From NCBI RefSeq assembly GCF_013315815.1, contig NZ_CP046051.1:1302001-1366000 (forward strand): a stretch of 64,000 nucleotides of DNA, given 5' to 3'. The stretch is from Caproicibacterium lactatifermentans (GTDB taxonomy: Bacteria > Bacillota > Clostridia > Oscillospirales > Acutalibacteraceae). The notes under the pieces were generated by a model, which worked only from the letters and a program-made list of their open reading frames with translations, searched no databases and was not told the DNA's origin. A program made the position numbers and the translations under genes. Position 1 is the first letter of the stretch. The number at the start of each line of letters is the position of its first letter. Positions 56,340-64,000 of this stretch are shown here, piece after piece.

Positions 56340-57785
56340 TTATTTGCCTGTATGTTCGGTTTTGGGCAGTTCTTTTCCGGAAAGCGTGCGGGCAACAACG
56401 ACACCTGTCGCAGAGGCCTGCATTAAACCGCGGGTAATGCCCGCGCCGTCACCAATCGCGTACAGTCCCGGAATCTTGGTGGAAAATGTGTTGTCCACCG
56501 CCATTTTTGAGGAATAGAATTTAACCTCCACGCCGTACAGCAGTGTATTCTTGCTGTACAAACCGGGTGCAAGTGCATCAAACGCTTTCAGTGCTTCTAC
56601 AATCGAAGTCAGATGCCGATGCGGCAGCACAAAGGAGAGGTCGCCGGGCACGGCTGTTTTTAAGGTCGGGACGGTTGTGGATTTTGCCAAACGGGAAGCA
56701 CTGCTGCGGCGTCCCAAAAGCAGGTCGCCCAGACGCTGTACCATAATGCCGCCGCCTGTCAGCATATTGCCCAGCTTTGCAATGTAACGGCCGTACTCAA
56801 TCGGCTGATGGAATGGTTCCGTAAACTTTGTGGAAACAAGCAGTGCAAAGTTGGTATTGTCGCTGTGACGTTCATCGTTTGCGTAGGAATGTCCGTTAAC
56901 CACTGCCAGGCCGCCGTCCGGACCGTCATAGTGTTCCTCGCTGACAATACCGCCCGGATTCATGCAGAAAGTACGGACTTTATTTTCAAAAGTATCCGAA
57001 TAATAAACCAATTTTGCCTCATATAAACTTTTGGTCAGGCAGTCCATGACGCCGTTTGGCACCTCTACCCGAACACCGATGTCCACCTCGTTGTTGGTCA
57101 GCTGCAAACCGGTTTCGTGCGCAATGCGGGTAAGCCACGCGGCGCCCCCGCGTCCCGGTGCCGCAACGACCGTTCCGGCCGCAACACGGCGGATAGTCCC
57201 GTCCGCAAGGGATAATTCCGCACCGGCCGCACGGCCATTTTCCACAAGAATCCGTTCCGCTGTCGTATGCGGTAAAAAAGTAAACTGTGGTTTTTCCGCA
57301 AGGTAATCGTACATGGCTTTCAGGACCTGATAGCTGTACTCAGTGCCCATGTGCCGTACCGGGCATCGGATAAGCTGAATATTCTGCCGGCGCGCTTCAT
57401 AGGCAATTTTGTCCGCGGTGCGGTCACCAAGGCCGAACACTTTTTCCGGTGCGCCAAAGTGCAGGTAAATGCTGTCACAGTAATGAATGAGCGCCTGTGC
57501 CTGTTCCCGCGGCATATAGTCAACCAAGTTGCCGCCGACGTCTTCATTTAGGGACAGTTTGCCGTCCGAAAAAGCGCCTGCTCCCGCCCAGCCGTTCATA
57601 ATGCTACAGGTTTTGCAGTGCATACAGCGTCCGCCGGTTCTTGCCGGACAGCGCCGGTCGTCGATTGCACTGCCGCTGTCGACCATCAGAACGGTTTTGT
57701 CCGGCGCCAAACGGTCCAGCTCCAATGCCGTAAAGATACCGGCAGGGCCTGCACCAATAATGAGTACATCATATGTATTTTTCAT
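56340..57785 (-). CDS. FAD-dependent oxidoreductase (COG2509-like)
   Basis: 481 aa flavoprotein. N-terminal dinucleotide-binding GAGPAGIFTALELDR (residues 12-26), a Cys-rich CRC-type segment CPARTGGRCMHCKTC (about 46-60) that could hold metal, and the C-terminal FAD motif GLYAIGDGAGITRGLMQAS (about 441). Members are uncharacterised dehydrogenases near the HI0933/GidA superfamily. ATG behind GAAAGGAT. Consensus promoter suggests strong expression; substrate unknown. Confidence 0.85.
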   Translation of the reverse strand: MKNTYDVLIIGAGPAGIFTALELDRLAPDKTVLMVDSGSAIDDRRCPARTGGRCMHCKTCSIMNGWAGAGAFSDGKLSLNEDVGGNLVDYMPREQAQALIHYCDSIYLHFGAPEKVFGLGDRTADKIAYEARRQNIQLIRCPVRHMGTEYSYQVLKAMYDYLAEKPQFTFLPHTTAERILVENGRAAGAELSLADGTIRRVAAGTVVAAPGRGGAAWLTRIAHETGLQLTNNEVDIGVRVEVPNGVMDCLTKSLYEAKLVYYSDTFENKVRTFCMNPGGIVSEEHYDGPDGGLAVVNGHSYANDERHSDNTNFALLVSTKFTEPFHQPIEYGRYIAKLGNMLTGGGIMVQRLGDLLLGRRSSASRLAKSTTVPTLKTAVPGDLSFVLPHRHLTSIVEALKAFDALAPGLYSKNTLLYGVEVKFYSSKMAVDNTFSTKIPGLYAIGDGAGITRGLMQASATGVVVARTLSGKELPKTEHTGK

Positions 57786-57954: not shown

Positions 57955-58608
57955 TTAAATAAGCCGATAGGCACAGTCTGTTCTGGAACAAGCCGCGCAT
58001 TTCCCATCGCAGGCTTTTCCGCCCGTCTTCACCGGCTGCGGGGAAACGCCAACGATAGCCGTTACACTTTTTGTCGGCACCAATAAAAGGCTCCGCGTGC
58101 AGGAAAGGCCAATGCGTTTTTGTGCATCTAAAATCTGCAGCAGCCGGTCCTGACAGGAAAGGTCCAAATCCCCGTACCCGGGGCTGTACCGCGGACGCAG
58201 GAACAGAGATTCCTTTGCAAAATGCGACGCTAATTTTTCACAGCATTCATCACAAAAAGTTTCCGTCATAGCAGCGGCGGCAGCCTGCAGCACCGCTGCC
58301 GGTGTCACCGCTGAAGCCGCTGCACGCTGCATCAGACGGTCCGGTGCAGGCCCCAGTGTTGCCGCAAACAGGCACACCTGTGTACACCCCTGCAGATGTT
58401 CTGCCAGATTTTGGCTGACAAGGTTAAGCCTCGCCGCAAATGTGTGGTTTCCCCGCACAGTAACCGGATAAGAAGCCCATATCCAGTGTGGCGTGCATGT
58501 TTTTTGCAGCAATTCCAGCGCCCGCTCCACCTGCTGCCGAATGGTGGGGCCGGGGTCCGCTCTGCCGCAGCCGAGGTAGCGGTAGATTTCCCGCCGGTCA
58601 GTCTGCAT
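57955..58608 (-). CDS. Free-standing MetH activation-domain protein
   Basis: 217 aa. Resembles the C-terminal reactivation domain of B12-dependent methionine synthase, which binds SAM and restores oxidised cobalamin: RYSPGYGDLDLSCQ (about 137) and PTKSVTAIVGVSPQ (about 185) are its SAM-site motifs. A Cys-rich tail (CDGKCAACSRTDC) is additional. Start ATG 58608 overlaps the end of metF by 11 bases. Clostridia commonly carry this domain as a separate gene with a shortened MetH, and metH lies 4 kb away here. Confidence 0.85.
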   Translation of the reverse strand: MQTDRREIYRYLGCGRADPGPTIRQQVERALELLQKTCTPHWIWASYPVTVRGNHTFAARLNLVSQNLAEHLQGCTQVCLFAATLGPAPDRLMQRAAASAVTPAAVLQAAAAAMTETFCDECCEKLASHFAKESLFLRPRYSPGYGDLDLSCQDRLLQILDAQKRIGLSCTRSLLLVPTKSVTAIVGVSPQPVKTGGKACDGKCAACSRTDCAYRLI

Positions 58609-59473
58609 GACTGGAAATGACATGGGACAGGTTGCTGAGAATCTTAGCCGCCACATCCGGCTTATTCATGGTGTAAATATGAATGTGTTCCACGCCGTTG
58701 GCAATCAAATCAATAATCTGTTCGGTCGCGTAGGCAATGCCGGCCTGTTTCATGGTGGCCGGGTCACTGCCGAAACGGTCAACCAAACTTAAAAAGCGGC
58801 GCGGCAGATAAGTGCCGGAAAGTTCCACGCAGCGGCGCATCTGCTTGGCGCTGGTCAGCGGCATAATGCCCGCAAGGATAGGCACATGAATTCCCACCGC
58901 AAGCGCACGGTAAAGAAAATTATAAAAAAGGTCATTGTCAAAAAACATCTGGCTGGTAAAGAAGTCACAGCCGGCATCGGCTTTTTCCTTCAGATACTGC
59001 AAATCTTCCGCCTTATTGGCGCTTTCCACATGGCCTTCCGGATAGCACGCACCGCCAATGCAGAAGTTTCCCATTTCCTTCAGGTCTGTAATCAGTTCAC
59101 AGGCATGGCGGTATTGCCCGTCCCGCGGAAAGGAATCGTCCTTGGGCAAATCTCCCCGCAGTGCCAGAATGTTCTCAATGCCGTTTGCCGCAAAACGGCG
59201 TGCAACCGCAAGAACTTCCTGCTTTTCCGCGGAGACGCAGGTCAAATGTGCAAGGGCCGGCACCCCGCATTTTTCCACTTCCGCCGCAAGTTCAATGGAA
59301 TTTGCACAGTTGGTGCCGCCTGCCCCGTAAGTCACACTGACAAAGGCGGGCTGCAGGGCCGCAATGGCGTGAACGACCTCCCGCGCATGCGGCAGTCCGG
59401 TGCCTTGTTTGGGCGGAAAAATCTCACAGCTGACAGTAACCTGCCCCGGTTTCAGTAAATTCTTAATTTTCAT
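58598..59473 (-). CDS. metF: Methylenetetrahydrofolate reductase
   Basis: Reduces methylene-THF to methyl-THF, the methyl donor for MetH. 291 aa TIM-barrel flavoprotein. SCEIFPPK (residues 16-23), VSVTYGAGGT (about 51), ILALRGDLP (about 107) and FFTSQMFFD (about 175) are family motifs. Start ATG 59473 behind GAGGGACGG; the frame extends to 59551 without support. No SAM riboswitch or S-box visible upstream. Confidence 0.95.
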   Translation of the reverse strand: MKIKNLLKPGQVTVSCEIFPPKQGTGLPHAREVVHAIAALQPAFVSVTYGAGGTNCANSIELAAEVEKCGVPALAHLTCVSAEKQEVLAVARRFAANGIENILALRGDLPKDDSFPRDGQYRHACELITDLKEMGNFCIGGACYPEGHVESANKAEDLQYLKEKADAGCDFFTSQMFFDNDLFYNFLYRALAVGIHVPILAGIMPLTSAKQMRRCVELSGTYLPRRFLSLVDRFGSDPATMKQAGIAYATEQIIDLIANGVEHIHIYTMNKPDVAAKILSNLSHVISSHAD

Positions 59474-59608
59474 CTGCCGTCCCTCATTTTCCTCTCTTGT
59501 CTGCAGTAAAGCGTTGTGAACCTTAACTATGTCGTTTAGTATATCATACATTCTAAAAACGTGCTATTCTTTTTTACTGCAAAGCGCAGAAGTTTCCTCG
59601 CGCCAAAC

Positions 59609-59637
59609 GTGACAAATCCTGTCTTTTCTATTATAAT
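59609..59637 (+). promoter_or_regulatory. Promoter of pglX
   Basis: GTGACA (59609-59614), 17-base spacer, perfect TATAAT (59632-59637); the gene starts 33 bases later. Confidence 0.7.
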
Positions 59638-59670
59638 AGACAGGAATTCGCAAAACAGGGGGAACCAATA

Positions 59671-62600
59671 TTGGATAAGGCAGCGATATGTGCGCTGGCA
59701 CAGGCAGCACGCACGGACCTTGAAAAAAAAGCACATCTGTGCCTACAGGCACTGCGGGGACCACGCCTGCCGGGCGGTACCGGCCTGCGGCAGGACCAAC
59801 TGCTGCATCTGGTATCCCGCCGCGGTGAAGATACCGTCTGCCGGAAGGCTGCCTGCCGCTATTTTATGGAGCTGGCGGGTATCCGCTATATGGAAGTAAA
59901 CGGCTGTCTGCCGCAGCGTGTTCTTTCCCCCGCCGCCGGAAACGAACTTCCGCAGATACTGGAAAGCTGGCTTTCCACCCATGCGGATACACTGGACCGG
60001 GATGAGATATACACCCGGCTTTTCCGGCGGGAATGTGCCCGCCTGCATCAGCTGGTTCCCGATTTTTTCCCGAAGCCCGATTGTACAGACCTGCTCCTTT
60101 CCTTAAGCTATCGGCACGGCGCAGCGGCGCTTTTCCGGGACAGCCTTCCGGAAGACGCGTGGAAAGACCAAATTGAAATCATCGGCTGGCTGTATCAATA
60201 TTATCACCTGCAGGAAAAGAATGCCGCTATTGATGTTTACCGTGGTGCCGTGAAAATGCGTGACGTACCAGCCGCAACGCAATTTTTCACGACCGACTGG
60301 GTTGTAAAATACATGGTGCAGAATACGCTTGGCCGTGTGTGGCTGGAGGGTCACCCGGACAGCCGTCTGCGCACAAAAATGCCCTATTTTTTGGATACGC
60401 CCCAGAAAGCCACACGCAGTCCTATGAATCCCGAGGACCTGCACCTGCTGGACCCCTGCATGGGCAGCGGACATATTTTGGTTTATGCCTTTGACCTATT
60501 GTTAAATATATACGCGGAATGCGGCATCCCTGCACAAAAGGCTGCGCCGCTGATTCTGGAAAAGAATCTGTGGGGACTGGATATTGACGAACACAGCAGG
60601 CAGCTGGCCGCTTTTGCATTGATGATGCGGGCATATGCCTGTGACAAAGATATTTTCAATCAGCATCCTCTTCTGCATCTGTGTACCATTCACAGCAGCA
60701 AAAATGTACCCCGCCGGGCGGTGCACTTTGCCTCAAAGCACGACGAAGCACTGCAAGATGACCTGCAGCGCATTCTTTACGCGTATCACGGCGCGGAACA
60801 ATACGGTTCGCTGATTTCCGCACCCCGGGTAGAACTGCCCGCTTTGAAAAAACGATTTCAAGAGATTCAACAGACACAGCAGACCGGAAACTTGTTTCAA
60901 ATGGAAGGCCGCCGGCTGGCACTGGAAACACTGCTGCCGCTGGTAAAACAAACGGAAGTGCTTGCCGGACAGTATGACGCCGTGGTAACCAATCCCCCCT
61001 ACCTAAGCCACATGGACCGCCCGCTGCGCCGCTTTGTTGACAAGCACTGGCCGCACTGCAACAATGACCTGTTCGCGGTATTCATGGTACGCTGTTTCGG
61101 CTTTTGCAAGCCCGGCAGCTACTGCGGTTTTATGACCCCATTTGTATGGATGTTTATTAAAAGCTATGTCAATCTGCGCCGCTTCCTAGTAAAGGAAAAA
61201 TCCGTTTCGTCACTGGTGCAGCTGGCATATTCCGCTTTCGAGGAAGCAACTGTGCCGCTGTGTACCTTTGTCCTGCAAAATAAAAAAGAGGAAGACCCCG
61301 GACGTTATCTAAGGCTGACCGGCTTTTCCGGCGGCATGGATGAAATGGGCCGATATGTTCAGGAGGCAGCCGCACATCCCGGAAATAGCTGGGACTTTGA
61401 GGCACGCCTGTCCGACTTCCGCCAGATACCGGGCAGTCCCTTTGCTTACTGGGCCAGCGGCAGCATTGCTCGTGTCTTTCGGCAGGGCACTCCTCTTGGC
61501 CGCATGACGCCGGTCTGCAACGGACTCTTCACCTGCAGCAACCGGCGCTTCCTGCGAAAATGGTGGGAAGTGGACCGAACTGCGATTGACTTTTACTGTA
61601 CCAGTGCGCAGGACTGCCGCAGCAGCGCCTGCCGCTGGTTCCCCTACAACAAAGGCGGCGCCTACCGAAAATGGTACGGCAATCAGGAATGGGTTGTGGA
61701 TTTTTCCGACTTTGGTGCGGAAATTCAGCGCTACCGCACAGCAAGCGGCCAGAGTGCCGCCATGCCGGGACGGCAATACTATTTTCATGAGAGCCTAAGC
61801 TGGAGCTTTGTTAGTTCCAGCCGGTTCGGTGTCCGTGCCTATCCGCCCGGATTTGTCTTTGATATTGCCGGTTCTTCTTTGTTCCCGGAACCAAAGGACC
61901 GGCTGTACCGGCTGGGCTTCCTGGGCAGTTCCACCGCTTTTCAGCTTTTGCAGATTCTGAACCCAACCCTGAACTGCCAGGTCGGCGACATTTCCCGCCT
62001 GCCCGTTCTGGAAGCAGACGACCACACGGAAATTGACCATTTGGTACAGGAAAATATTGAACTTTCCAAAGCTGACTGGAACGACAGCGAATTAAGCTGG
62101 GACTTTACTATGCCGCCGCTGCTGACTGCTGAAGGTAATACACTGGCGGAAGCTCAGGCAAATCGTGAACAGGAAGCAAACATACGCTGGAACCGGCTGC
62201 GACAGAATGAGGAAACCATCAACCGGCACTTTGCTACCCTGTACGGAACCGGCGCACCTACCACCGTACCGGAACGGGATTTGTCCATTGCGCCCGTCAG
62301 CCGAGAACGGGACGCGGAAAGTTTGCTTTCCTACTTTGTCGGCGTTTACTTTGGCCGCTGGTTCTGCCGTTTCTGGCAGCCAAAAGAACGAAAACCGGTC
62401 CTGCTGCTGGAGGAAGCACCGCAGCTCTTTGCCGATTTTCTGGAAGCACGCTTTGGCACCGGCGCGGCGGACGAACTGGCACCTTTCCTTGGAAAAGGCA
62501 GCACTGCTTATGTATTCAAGCGGCGCTTTACCCGCACTTTCTTTCGCAGCCACTGCCAACAATACAAAAAGCGGCCTGTTTACTGGCAGACTTCATGCGG

Positions 62601-62778
62601 AAAACCTGCCCTGCTCTACTATTTCAGCGATTTGCAGCAGGCACTCACTTTTCTCGCCGAACTCGCCCCGGAAGAAGCGGCACTGCAGACACTTGCTGCA
62701 AAGCCGCCGCACTTTGACCGAAATGACGGCATTCCTGCCAACTTTGCAAAACTGCAATCTATACTGCGAAAAATATAA
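59671..62778 (+). CDS. pglX: PglX-type adenine-specific DNA methyltransferase (BREX), orphan
   Basis: 1035 aa. N6-adenine methyltransferase of the PglX family, which in BREX/Pgl phage defence methylates host DNA and is needed for exclusion. N-terminal helical part (to about 230), SAM motif I DPCMGSGHILVYAFD at Asp261, catalytic NPPY at Asn441, then a long target-recognition region, and the typical PglX ending (KKRPVYWQTSCGK; DRNDGIPANFAKLQSIL). The full domain order argues for an intact enzyme, although it is shorter than the usual about 1200 aa. Starts with TTG behind AGGGGG. No brxA/B/C/L or pglZ within the window: it stands alone between metF and metH. Could also be an orphan or repurposed methylase. 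Confidence 0.85.
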   Translation: MDKAAICALAQAARTDLEKKAHLCLQALRGPRLPGGTGLRQDQLLHLVSRRGEDTVCRKAACRYFMELAGIRYMEVNGCLPQRVLSPAAGNELPQILESWLSTHADTLDRDEIYTRLFRRECARLHQLVPDFFPKPDCTDLLLSLSYRHGAAALFRDSLPEDAWKDQIEIIGWLYQYYHLQEKNAAIDVYRGAVKMRDVPAATQFFTTDWVVKYMVQNTLGRVWLEGHPDSRLRTKMPYFLDTPQKATRSPMNPEDLHLLDPCMGSGHILVYAFDLLLNIYAECGIPAQKAAPLILEKNLWGLDIDEHSRQLAAFALMMRAYACDKDIFNQHPLLHLCTIHSSKNVPRRAVHFASKHDEALQDDLQRILYAYHGAEQYGSLISAPRVELPALKKRFQEIQQTQQTGNLFQMEGRRLALETLLPLVKQTEVLAGQYDAVVTNPPYLSHMDRPLRRFVDKHWPHCNNDLFAVFMVRCFGFCKPGSYCGFMTPFVWMFIKSYVNLRRFLVKEKSVSSLVQLAYSAFEEATVPLCTFVLQNKKEEDPGRYLRLTGFSGGMDEMGRYVQEAAAHPGNSWDFEARLSDFRQIPGSPFAYWASGSIARVFRQGTPLGRMTPVCNGLFTCSNRRFLRKWWEVDRTAIDFYCTSAQDCRSSACRWFPYNKGGAYRKWYGNQEWVVDFSDFGAEIQRYRTASGQSAAMPGRQYYFHESLSWSFVSSSRFGVRAYPPGFVFDIAGSSLFPEPKDRLYRLGFLGSSTAFQLLQILNPTLNCQVGDISRLPVLEADDHTEIDHLVQENIELSKADWNDSELSWDFTMPPLLTAEGNTLAEAQANREQEANIRWNRLRQNEETINRHFATLYGTGAPTTVPERDLSIAPVSRERDAESLLSYFVGVYFGRWFCRFWQPKERKPVLLLEEAPQLFADFLEARFGTGAADELAPFLGKGSTAYVFKRRFTRTFFRSHCQQYKKRPVYWQTSCGKPALLYYFSDLQQALTFLAELAPEEAALQTLAAKPPHFDRNDGIPANFAKLQSILRKI

Positions 62779-62806: not shown

Positions 62807-64000
62807 ATGGTATCTGTACACAGTCAGCTGGGAAAAAGAATGCTCATCTGTGACGGCGCAATGGGCACAATGCTGCAGCAGGCCGGCCTGACAGCGGGCG
62901 AAACAACGGAACTGTGGAACTTTTCCCACCCGGAAGTTCTGACACAGATTCACACCGCATACGCACAGGCGGGCGCTGACATTCTAACCGCCAACACATT
63001 CGGTGCAAATGGGATAAAGCTGGAGGACAAAACATATTCTGTCCCAGAGATTATCGCACAAGGAATCCGCCTTGCAAAACAGGTGGCTACACCGCTTGGA
63101 AAATGGACCGCACTGGACATCGGCCCGACTGGACGGCTGCTGGAACCCATGGGGGACCTCTCTTTTTACGATGCCTACCATGCTTTCACCGAAGCGGCAA
63201 AGGCCGGTGAAAAAGCCGGTGCCGACCTGATTCTTATTGAAACCATGAGCGATACGCTGGAAATGAAAGCCGCCCTTCTTGCCTGCAAGGAAAGCACAAA
63301 CCTGCCTGTCTTCGCGACCATGACCTGTGATGAAAAAGGTAAGCTGCTGACCGGCGGTGACATTCCCGCGGCCGTGGTCCTGCTGGAAAGCCTGCACGCG
63401 GATGCAATCGGCTTTAACTGCGGGCTGGGACCAAAACAGATGATTGACTTTCTGCCGACACTGAGGGAATACACGGACCTGCCGATTCTCATTCAGCCAA
63501 ATGCCGGACTGCCGCAGGTGGAAAACGGAAAAACTGTATTCTGCGTTGGTCCGGAAGAATTTGCACAGGACGCAGAAAGCCTTTGGGAAGGCGGTGCCTG
63601 GGTCTTGGGCGGCTGCTGCGGCACAACACCGAAACACATTCGGGCACTGGTGCGGCAAATGCAAGAAAAAGCTCCCAAGCCTCTGCCCGTACACAACCGC
63701 ACCATCGTTTCCTCTTACAGTCATACCGTCACGTTCGGCGGCAGGGCTCAGCTGATTGGGGAACGCATTAACCCAACCGGAAAAAAGCGCCTGCAAAAAG
63801 CGCTGCACGAAGAGGATATTGACTATATCCTGCGTGAGGGCATTGCCCAGCAGGACGCTGGTGCCGATATTCTCGATGTAAACGTCGGCCTGCCGGACAT
63901 CGACGAACCCCGGCTGCTTACCAAAGCGGTCCAGTCCCTGCAGAGCGTGACGGACCTGCCGCTGCAGATAGACACCAGCGACCCGCTGGCTATGGAACAG
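62807..64000 (+). CDS. metH: Cobalamin-dependent methionine synthase, 3' end cut
   Basis: The first 398 residues; the gene runs off the window. ATG behind AGAGGAGGGG, 28 bases after pglX, so probably in the same transcript. Homocysteine-binding barrel (residues 1-290: DGAMGTMLQQAG, with Zn ligands in GFNCGLGP at about 205 and GGCCGTTP at about 270), then the start of the methyl-THF domain (GERINPTGKKRLQ at about 320, DAGADILDVNVGLP at about 350). The activation domain is probably the separate gene at 57955-58608. Confidence 0.95.
   Translation, partial: MVSVHSQLGKRMLICDGAMGTMLQQAGLTAGETTELWNFSHPEVLTQIHTAYAQAGADILTANTFGANGIKLEDKTYSVPEIIAQGIRLAKQVATPLGKWTALDIGPTGRLLEPMGDLSFYDAYHAFTEAAKAGEKAGADLILIETMSDTLEMKAALLACKESTNLPVFATMTCDEKGKLLTGGDIPAAVVLLESLHADAIGFNCGLGPKQMIDFLPTLREYTDLPILIQPNAGLPQVENGKTVFCVGPEEFAQDAESLWEGGAWVLGGCCGTTPKHIRALVRQMQEKAPKPLPVHNRTIVSSYSHTVTFGGRAQLIGERINPTGKKRLQKALHEEDIDYILREGIAQQDAGADILDVNVGLPDIDEPRLLTKAVQSLQSVTDLPLQIDTSDPLAMEQ

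Follow-up and report, generated by a model that had tools for sequence, protein, structure and literature searches.

The closest described relatives of the protein considered here are the PglX (BrxX) methyltransferases of type 1 bacteriophage exclusion (BREX) systems, and the accessible text of two structural studies reports that they do not work alone. BrxX by itself binds its site with S-adenosylmethionine (SAM) but does not methylate, with its terminal domains or its methylase insert suggested as inhibitory (PMC11842806), and PglX is inactive alone and also when PglZ and BrxB are added (PMC11341690). The former study describes a metal site (D997, D999, D1012 and Y1113) that is conserved among BrxX homologs, and reports that the tyrosine of the NPPY motif is needed for DNA binding too. 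A Lacticaseibacillus pglX mutant without N6-methyladenine (6mA) shows expression changes according to the available part of PMC10164179, and PglX marks can therefore matter for physiology. A survey of BREX systems (PMC12839542) is anchored on BrxC, and the words 'orphan' and 'solo' are absent from the portion available to us. Here we describe a pglX gene in a stretch of 64 000 nucleotides of Caproicibacterium lactatifermentans (contig NZ_CP046051.1, positions 1 302 001 to 1 366 000; hereafter the window), in a genome where PglZ, BrxC and BrxL were not found. The evidence, drawn from sequence comparison, suggests that this orphan gene probably encodes a solitary N6-adenine DNA methyltransferase that was domesticated from a type 1 BREX PglX and acts on one fixed target without BREX.

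The open reading frame (ORF) is intact and begins with TTG, which pairs with ATG (five) or GTG (one) in six aligned relatives. Its features, and those of its protein, are as follows.
59671..62778, forward strand: solitary PglX/BrxX-type adenine DNA methyltransferase, 1035 aa, identified by family matches.
59657..59663, forward strand: AGGGGGA, resembling a ribosome-binding site, upstream of the TTG (read from the sequence).
59671..60171, forward strand: N-terminal domain, residues 1–167, fast-evolving and shorter than that of BrxX (210).
60172..61422, forward strand: methyltransferase domain, residues 168–584, placed by domain match and alignment.
60451..60474, forward strand: motif I, DPCMGSGH, residues 261–268, SAM binding (read from the sequence).
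60991..61002, forward strand: motif IV, NPPY, residues 441–444, catalytic (read from the sequence).
61423..62025, forward strand: target recognition domain, residues 585–785, frozen in the orphan lineage (from alignments).
62026..62775, forward strand: reduced C-terminal domain, residues 786–1035, without the BrxX metal site and without a counterpart of BrxX 1100–1144.

An earlier note on this DNA, made from the sequence alone, had recognized a 1035-aa PglX carrying both motifs, and this identification held: the positions were read directly and the curated NCBIfam BREX-1 PglX model (NF033452) scored 833.9 bits against a cut-off of 500, with the PADLOC PglX model at 863 bits. The related solved structures are Salmonella and E. 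coli BrxX proteins. An AlphaFold2 model (mean predicted local distance difference test, pLDDT, 89.1) had BrxX as its nearest structure, with 999 residues superposed at 3.5 Å on 8c45_A, although this comparison gave little coverage past residue 862. Residues D261, P262, M264, G265 and H268 were invariant in a 47-sequence alignment, NPPY was present in 33/33 orphan sequences counted and the SAM-pocket residues were nearly invariant, so that the loss of catalytic residues named in the note as a way for its reading to fail was not seen. Searching the genome with the orphan protein gave one match only. Two other enzyme classes were rejected. A type IIG/IIL restriction-modification enzyme was not indicated by the five Pfam matches, none of which is a nuclease, and in both sequence and model the N-terminal part corresponds to the N-terminal domain of BrxX; the PADLOC IIG model scored 725 bits, below the PglX model. 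DrmMI of class 1 DISARM (defence island system associated with restriction–modification) scored 452 bits against 863 for PglX, and the MZB domain (PF09369), which we take to be a marker of DrmB, had no match in the genome.

The window genome is a single contig of 1.99 Mb and is 99.99 % complete, which allowed the search for BREX partners to be extended beyond the 64 kb. PglZ, BrxC and the BrxL ATPase gave no match in the whole genome, BrxA and BrxB not being searched genome-wide, and three of the components used here to recognize a type 1 BREX system are thus missing. As positive controls, the same searches in 14 genomes matched PglZ in 10, BrxC in 3, BrxL in 4 and the MZB domain in 10. No BREX operon was therefore found elsewhere that this gene might complement. 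BrxC is present in 5/11 genomes of the window's genus and the orphan in 11/11. A BREX locus and the orphan occur together in four genomes (G004, G006, G009 and G415), where the recognition domain of the BREX PglX is 32–46 % identical to that of the orphan.

Orthologs were found in all 11 genomes of the window's genus (Caproicibacterium-like), four of which (G001, G003, G005 and G008) are only 67–81 % complete; the relatives share 55–75 % identity and have no internal stops. In the sister genus, g26 (Caproiciproducens), 8/11 genomes gave a match, and in a ninth (G428) the contig ends inside the gene, bringing the count to 9/11. Both figures fall within a published definition of persistence, namely presence in 75 % or more of the genomes of a taxon represented by five or more (PMC10609329). 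In a sample of the family, 22/398 genomes had a PglX match at E ≤ 1e-60: 7 from the window's genus, 5 from g26 (>880 bits) and 10 others that matched more weakly. A search for related loci returned three, of which only L019 was close (60 %). The orphans group together as a single clade (support 1.0 for the N-terminal and methylase part and 0.938 for the recognition domain), and the PglX tree (18 tips in this comparison, without G006 and G428) has main splits that mirror those of the tree of a neighbouring flavin adenine dinucleotide (FAD)-dependent protein. A chance insertion, which the earlier note had raised and linked to absence of the gene from this position in relatives, is rejected by the 11/11 and 9/11 orthologs, their single clade and the tree that matches that of the neighbour.

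The gene is under purifying selection, as dN/dS (the ratio of nonsynonymous to synonymous substitution rates) was 0.06–0.16 in 8/8 orphan pairs, the more distant pairs having high dS. The part of the protein that reads DNA has been conserved to an unusual degree. Identity was compared between the methylase and recognition domains using locus sequences only and pairs below 92 % methylase identity; the pairs are not independent and no P-value is given. Within the window's genus the orphans had 70.6 % identity in the methylase versus 73.7 % in the recognition domain, which was the higher in 36/49 pairs, and between genera 55.4 % versus 58.9 % (higher in 81/88 pairs). The control of 14 PglX proteins from BREX loci gave 55.2 % versus 36.6 %, and the recognition domain was the more conserved in 0/91 pairs. 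This control had been cleaned by dropping L094 (the same locus as L037), L099 (a fragment) and L074 (no BREX neighbours), and L075 supplies two of the 14. Where methylase identity was 60–70 %, median recognition-domain identity was 69.2 % for the genus orphans (77 pairs) and 71.9 % for g26 (21 pairs), versus 37.9 % in the BREX control before clean-up (28 pairs) and 44.0 % in 98 unsorted homologs (2092 pairs). The locus-only counts are the cleaner ones: 7 of the 18 genus rows and 8 of the 16 g26 rows in the latter comparison are database proteins, some of which duplicate or closely resemble the 11 and 8 locus sequences, and the 98 background homologs (P0023–P0120) are of unknown context and partly near-identical. 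Across the 33 orphans, 80/201 positions were invariant in the recognition domain versus 97/324 in the methylase outside its insert. One contig-limited sequence, C_L072, was excluded from these 33 (trees, invariance and metal-site counts) and included in the locus-only pair and signature counts.

At the seven positions aligned with BrxX residues for base contact or flipping, 30/34 orphans have NFPVILN, three NFTVILN and one NFPVVLN, and the BREX control yielded many different strings. A further string, NFPVIIN, occurs in the full-operon BREX PglX of G750 and in 25/98 unsorted homologs, and in the recognition-domain tree the orphans have these proteins as their closest relatives. Because of this common signature and relatedness, the orphans are predicted to have the same target site as some BREX PglX proteins from the same order, tentatively, as the contact positions were aligned to E. 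coli at low identity.

The termini present a different picture, and here the earlier note was mistaken in describing a typical C-terminal ending: the orphan aligns over 250 residues there, where E. coli HS BrxX has 368, and the metal-site residues are gone. D997, D999 and Y1113 were found in 0/18 genus orphans and D1012 in 1/18, versus 69/72, 71/72, 72/72 and 71/72, respectively, among long PglX homologs. The window protein has none of the four in either alignment and so lacks the BrxX metal site. A 45-residue stretch, the counterpart of BrxX 1100–1144, has also been lost, and both the N- and C-terminal regions of the orphan evolve fast.

The orphan has its own promoter, as the earlier note had proposed.
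59609..59637, forward strand: sigma-70-type promoter of pglX, GTGACA-17-TATAAT, 11/12 consensus matches.
A scan of the region returned three promoter-like sites versus 2.0 expected. The element is kept in 7/7 aligned upstream regions despite diverged flanks, and the 1.28 Mb of fetched loci contained 15 exact matches, every one of them the pglX site, from seven genomes (the loci overlap and some matches are counted repeatedly). In the fetched loci, the exact element was not found in the sister genus, nor in a clade of four genomes in which a transporter gene lies upstream of pglX. Short inverted repeats (CCTGTCT...AGACAGG, and TCTATTATAATAGA) were noticed by eye at 59618–59644, overlapping the −10 box, and are not conserved in the aligned relatives.

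Selection maintained over two genera in the absence of such partners from the window genome, with the catalytic and recognition parts kept and the termini relaxed, would be explained most simply by an autonomous methylase, and the solitary methylase suggested in the earlier note is supported by the lack of partners, shared descent, purifying selection, invariant motif and conserved recognition domain. Such an enzyme would recognize a single short non-palindromic site and methylate it on one strand throughout the chromosome, with no need of BrxB, BrxC or PglZ, the erosion of BREX-type terminal regions perhaps having relieved the inhibition proposed for lone BrxX. The lineage may retain the gene for its marks, as a fixed epigenetic signal that affects gene expression or some other function of the chromosome, in the manner of CamA or CcrM. 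The likeliest role, judged from CamA (PMC8187626, in its accessible text), would be in gene expression or development. A fuller version, in which a BREX methyltransferase escaped its immune complex by shedding inhibitory terminal elements and now marks DNA autonomously across the genus, as an epigenetic writer whose fixed target is shared with a group of BREX systems, is put forward tentatively, as somewhat more doubtful than not. If true, the DNA of the hosts would look like 'self' to BREX systems of matching specificity.

Several observations weigh against an autonomous methylase. Most of the N- and C-terminal fold is retained, and the methylase insert of 94 residues is not specially short beside the 51–111 of BREX-type sequences; anatomy is thus no proof of autonomy. 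The metal-site count depends on the alignment, a smaller one giving D997 and D1012 in 1/13 genus orphans each, and D999 and Y1113 in 0/13. The AlphaFold2 model is poor (pLDDT <50) at residues 186–205, where the counterparts of two SAM-pocket residues lie. Within g26 the recognition domain is conserved only to the same degree as the methylase (methylase 78.8 % versus recognition domain 77.6 %; recognition higher in 6/27 pairs). The genome-wide partner search covered PglZ, BrxC and BrxL, which would leave room for BrxA, BrxB or an unlinked, non-homologous partner. Finally, two g26 genomes (G326 and G429) are without pglX though much of the neighbourhood is kept, which indicates that the gene is not essential in the sister genus. 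These are the earliest g26 branches in the FAD-protein tree, with moderate or weak support, and an early loss of pglX is likely from these sequences, if not certain.

Of the competing explanations, the one that survives best, though it is improbable, is a DNA-binding sensor or regulator that recognizes its site with SAM and does not methylate. Lone BrxX behaves in this way in vitro, in the accessible account of PMC11842806, and the genome has no PglZ, BrxC or BrxL; the retention of NPPY is compatible with a sensor, given that the BrxX tyrosine also serves DNA binding. The full count of NPPY among orphans and the largely kept SAM-pocket residues argue instead for catalysis. Less probable still is a reduced anti-phage defence system built around this protein and an unrecognized partner; the earlier note had offered a reduced defence core as an alternative. 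The parent family of the protein is a defence component and the PADLOC models match strongly, but none of ten neighbouring proteins (five from the window locus and five from the loci of relatives) had a PADLOC match, no genome-wide endonuclease search being made; moreover, the flanking genes vary between clades and the recognition domain is frozen, unlike that of BREX PglX, so that this proposal was not borne out. It is very unlikely that the gene is a selectively neutral remnant of a lost BREX operon on its way out. The patchy occurrence of BREX in the genus, the eroding C-terminal domain and the two sister-genus genomes without the gene would fit decay; the open frame in 11/11 genomes, the invariant NPPY, the unusually conserved recognition domain, the conserved promoter, the low dN/dS values and an age spanning two genera do not, and a decaying remnant is rejected.

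The neighbourhood of the gene in the window comprises the following, the names metF and metH being taken from the earlier note and from our general knowledge, and therefore presumptive.
56340..57785, reverse strand: FAD-dependent oxidoreductase (FAD-depend_C domain), near pglX in 18/19 loci of both genera.
58598..59551, reverse strand: metF, divergent neighbour and genomic context only, for which PADLOC was the sole family search.
62807..64000, forward strand: metH, downstream neighbour, running past the window end and dispensable for pglX retention.

The location of pglX between metF and metH, as originally described, is confirmed in the window, and metH begins 28 bases beyond the end of pglX on the same strand. 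When these neighbourhoods were compared across relatives, pglX itself proved to be conserved, whereas the arrangement with metH downstream and metF divergent was present in only 4/11 genus genomes (the window's own, G007, G002 and G005), and the flanks differ between clades. In four other genomes (L028:7207-8595, L029, L030 and L031) an SNF-family sodium-dependent transporter lies directly upstream of pglX on the same strand; beyond it are metF and metH in three, and the contig end in the fourth. A promoter-like site with GTGACA precedes the transporter in the three loci tested (L028, L029 and L031). No met gene lies near pglX in G006, G008 and G009, and metH was not found at E ≤ 1e-60 in G006 and G009 (99 % complete) or in G008 (74 %); all three keep pglX and its promoter. 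In the sister genus, metH is away from pglX in 7/7 genomes searched for it with the pglX locus in hand. In the two g26 genomes without pglX, met genes do lie close to the FAD gene, so that the neighbourhood looks like one of shared ancestry. In G429 it holds divergent DUF554 and HAD genes (L111:11477-12935), and in G326 a divergent 499-aa ORF and a HAD gene (L110:7531-9914). Rfam returned no family at the gathering score in seven loci. The position of pglX beside met genes is a shared or shifting neighbourhood and not a requirement. Tuning of the methylase by SAM or methionine through a functional tie to the metF–metH cluster, as the earlier note had suggested, is thus the least likely explanation of all: the adjacent metH, the arrangement in four genomes and the upstream transporter of four others would suit it, and the genomes with pglX and no detected metH, the distant metH of g26, the absence of Rfam matches and the met genes of G326 and G429 speak against it.

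Other PglX loci were seen. A second PglX of 1165 aa in G294 (L074:7349-10846, reverse strand) had no BREX gene in the 20 kb fetched; it is flanked by a GH25/LysM gene on one side and by enoyl-reductase and mutY-like genes on the other, has a relative in G395 (2/6 genomes of that genus) and is possibly an independent solitary PglX. Homologs of 850 aa were considered as further orphans and rejected, as the loci fetched (G049, G524, G676, G750 and G258) belong to BREX systems and encode the C-terminal part in an ORF of its own; the majority of the 850-aa P proteins have no assigned genome. In relatives from the same order or family (L096, L094/L037, L092, L093 and L075), the BREX pglX likewise stops after the recognition domain (~814–869 aa) and the C-terminal part is a separate ORF, a pattern to be expected of phase-variable pglX.

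Why lone BrxX cannot methylate is still an open question in the accessible text of the two structural studies (PMC11842806 and PMC11341690). The lineage described here is a natural experiment on that inhibition, as the same kind of enzyme has been kept without BREX while its termini erode and its DNA-reading part is frozen. It illustrates a route from defence component to inherited epigenetic enzyme, and is a warning that a gene annotated as 'BREX PglX' need not belong to a BREX system. Our literature search, which left most subscription journals and bioRxiv outside its reach, found no report of a solitary PglX in Caproicibacterium or Caproiciproducens, nor one combining a frozen recognition domain with the loss of BREX-type parts.

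Persistent solitary methylases are already known, and a PglX-like one from Haloterrigena is in print (PMC10609329). CamA of Clostridioides difficile is a lineage-wide orphan m6A methylase of CAAAAA; it is a little over half the size of the orphan, aligning only from model residues ~165–206 to 860, at 14–16 % identity. The Haloterrigena enzyme, HG5, a BREX-like methyltransferase of CTGGAG, is also persistent in its genus with one motif; it is archaeal, and the available part of that paper does not state its BREX-partner status or report an analysis of domain erosion or of the recognition domain. PglX of Streptomyces coelicolor methylates in vitro and is without BrxX-type terminal domains, according to the portion of PMC11842806 available; it works within the Pgl defence locus, however, and the type 2 PglX model scores the orphan at 25 bits against a cut-off of 400. 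The nearest described proteins are the type 1 BREX PglX/BrxX enzymes of E. coli HS and Salmonella (PDB 9ewz and 8c45), with which the orphan shares domain order, fold and catalytic motifs; it differs from them in having no BrxC, PglZ or BrxL in its genome, in its shorter termini and lost metal site, and in a recognition domain that is frozen rather than variable.

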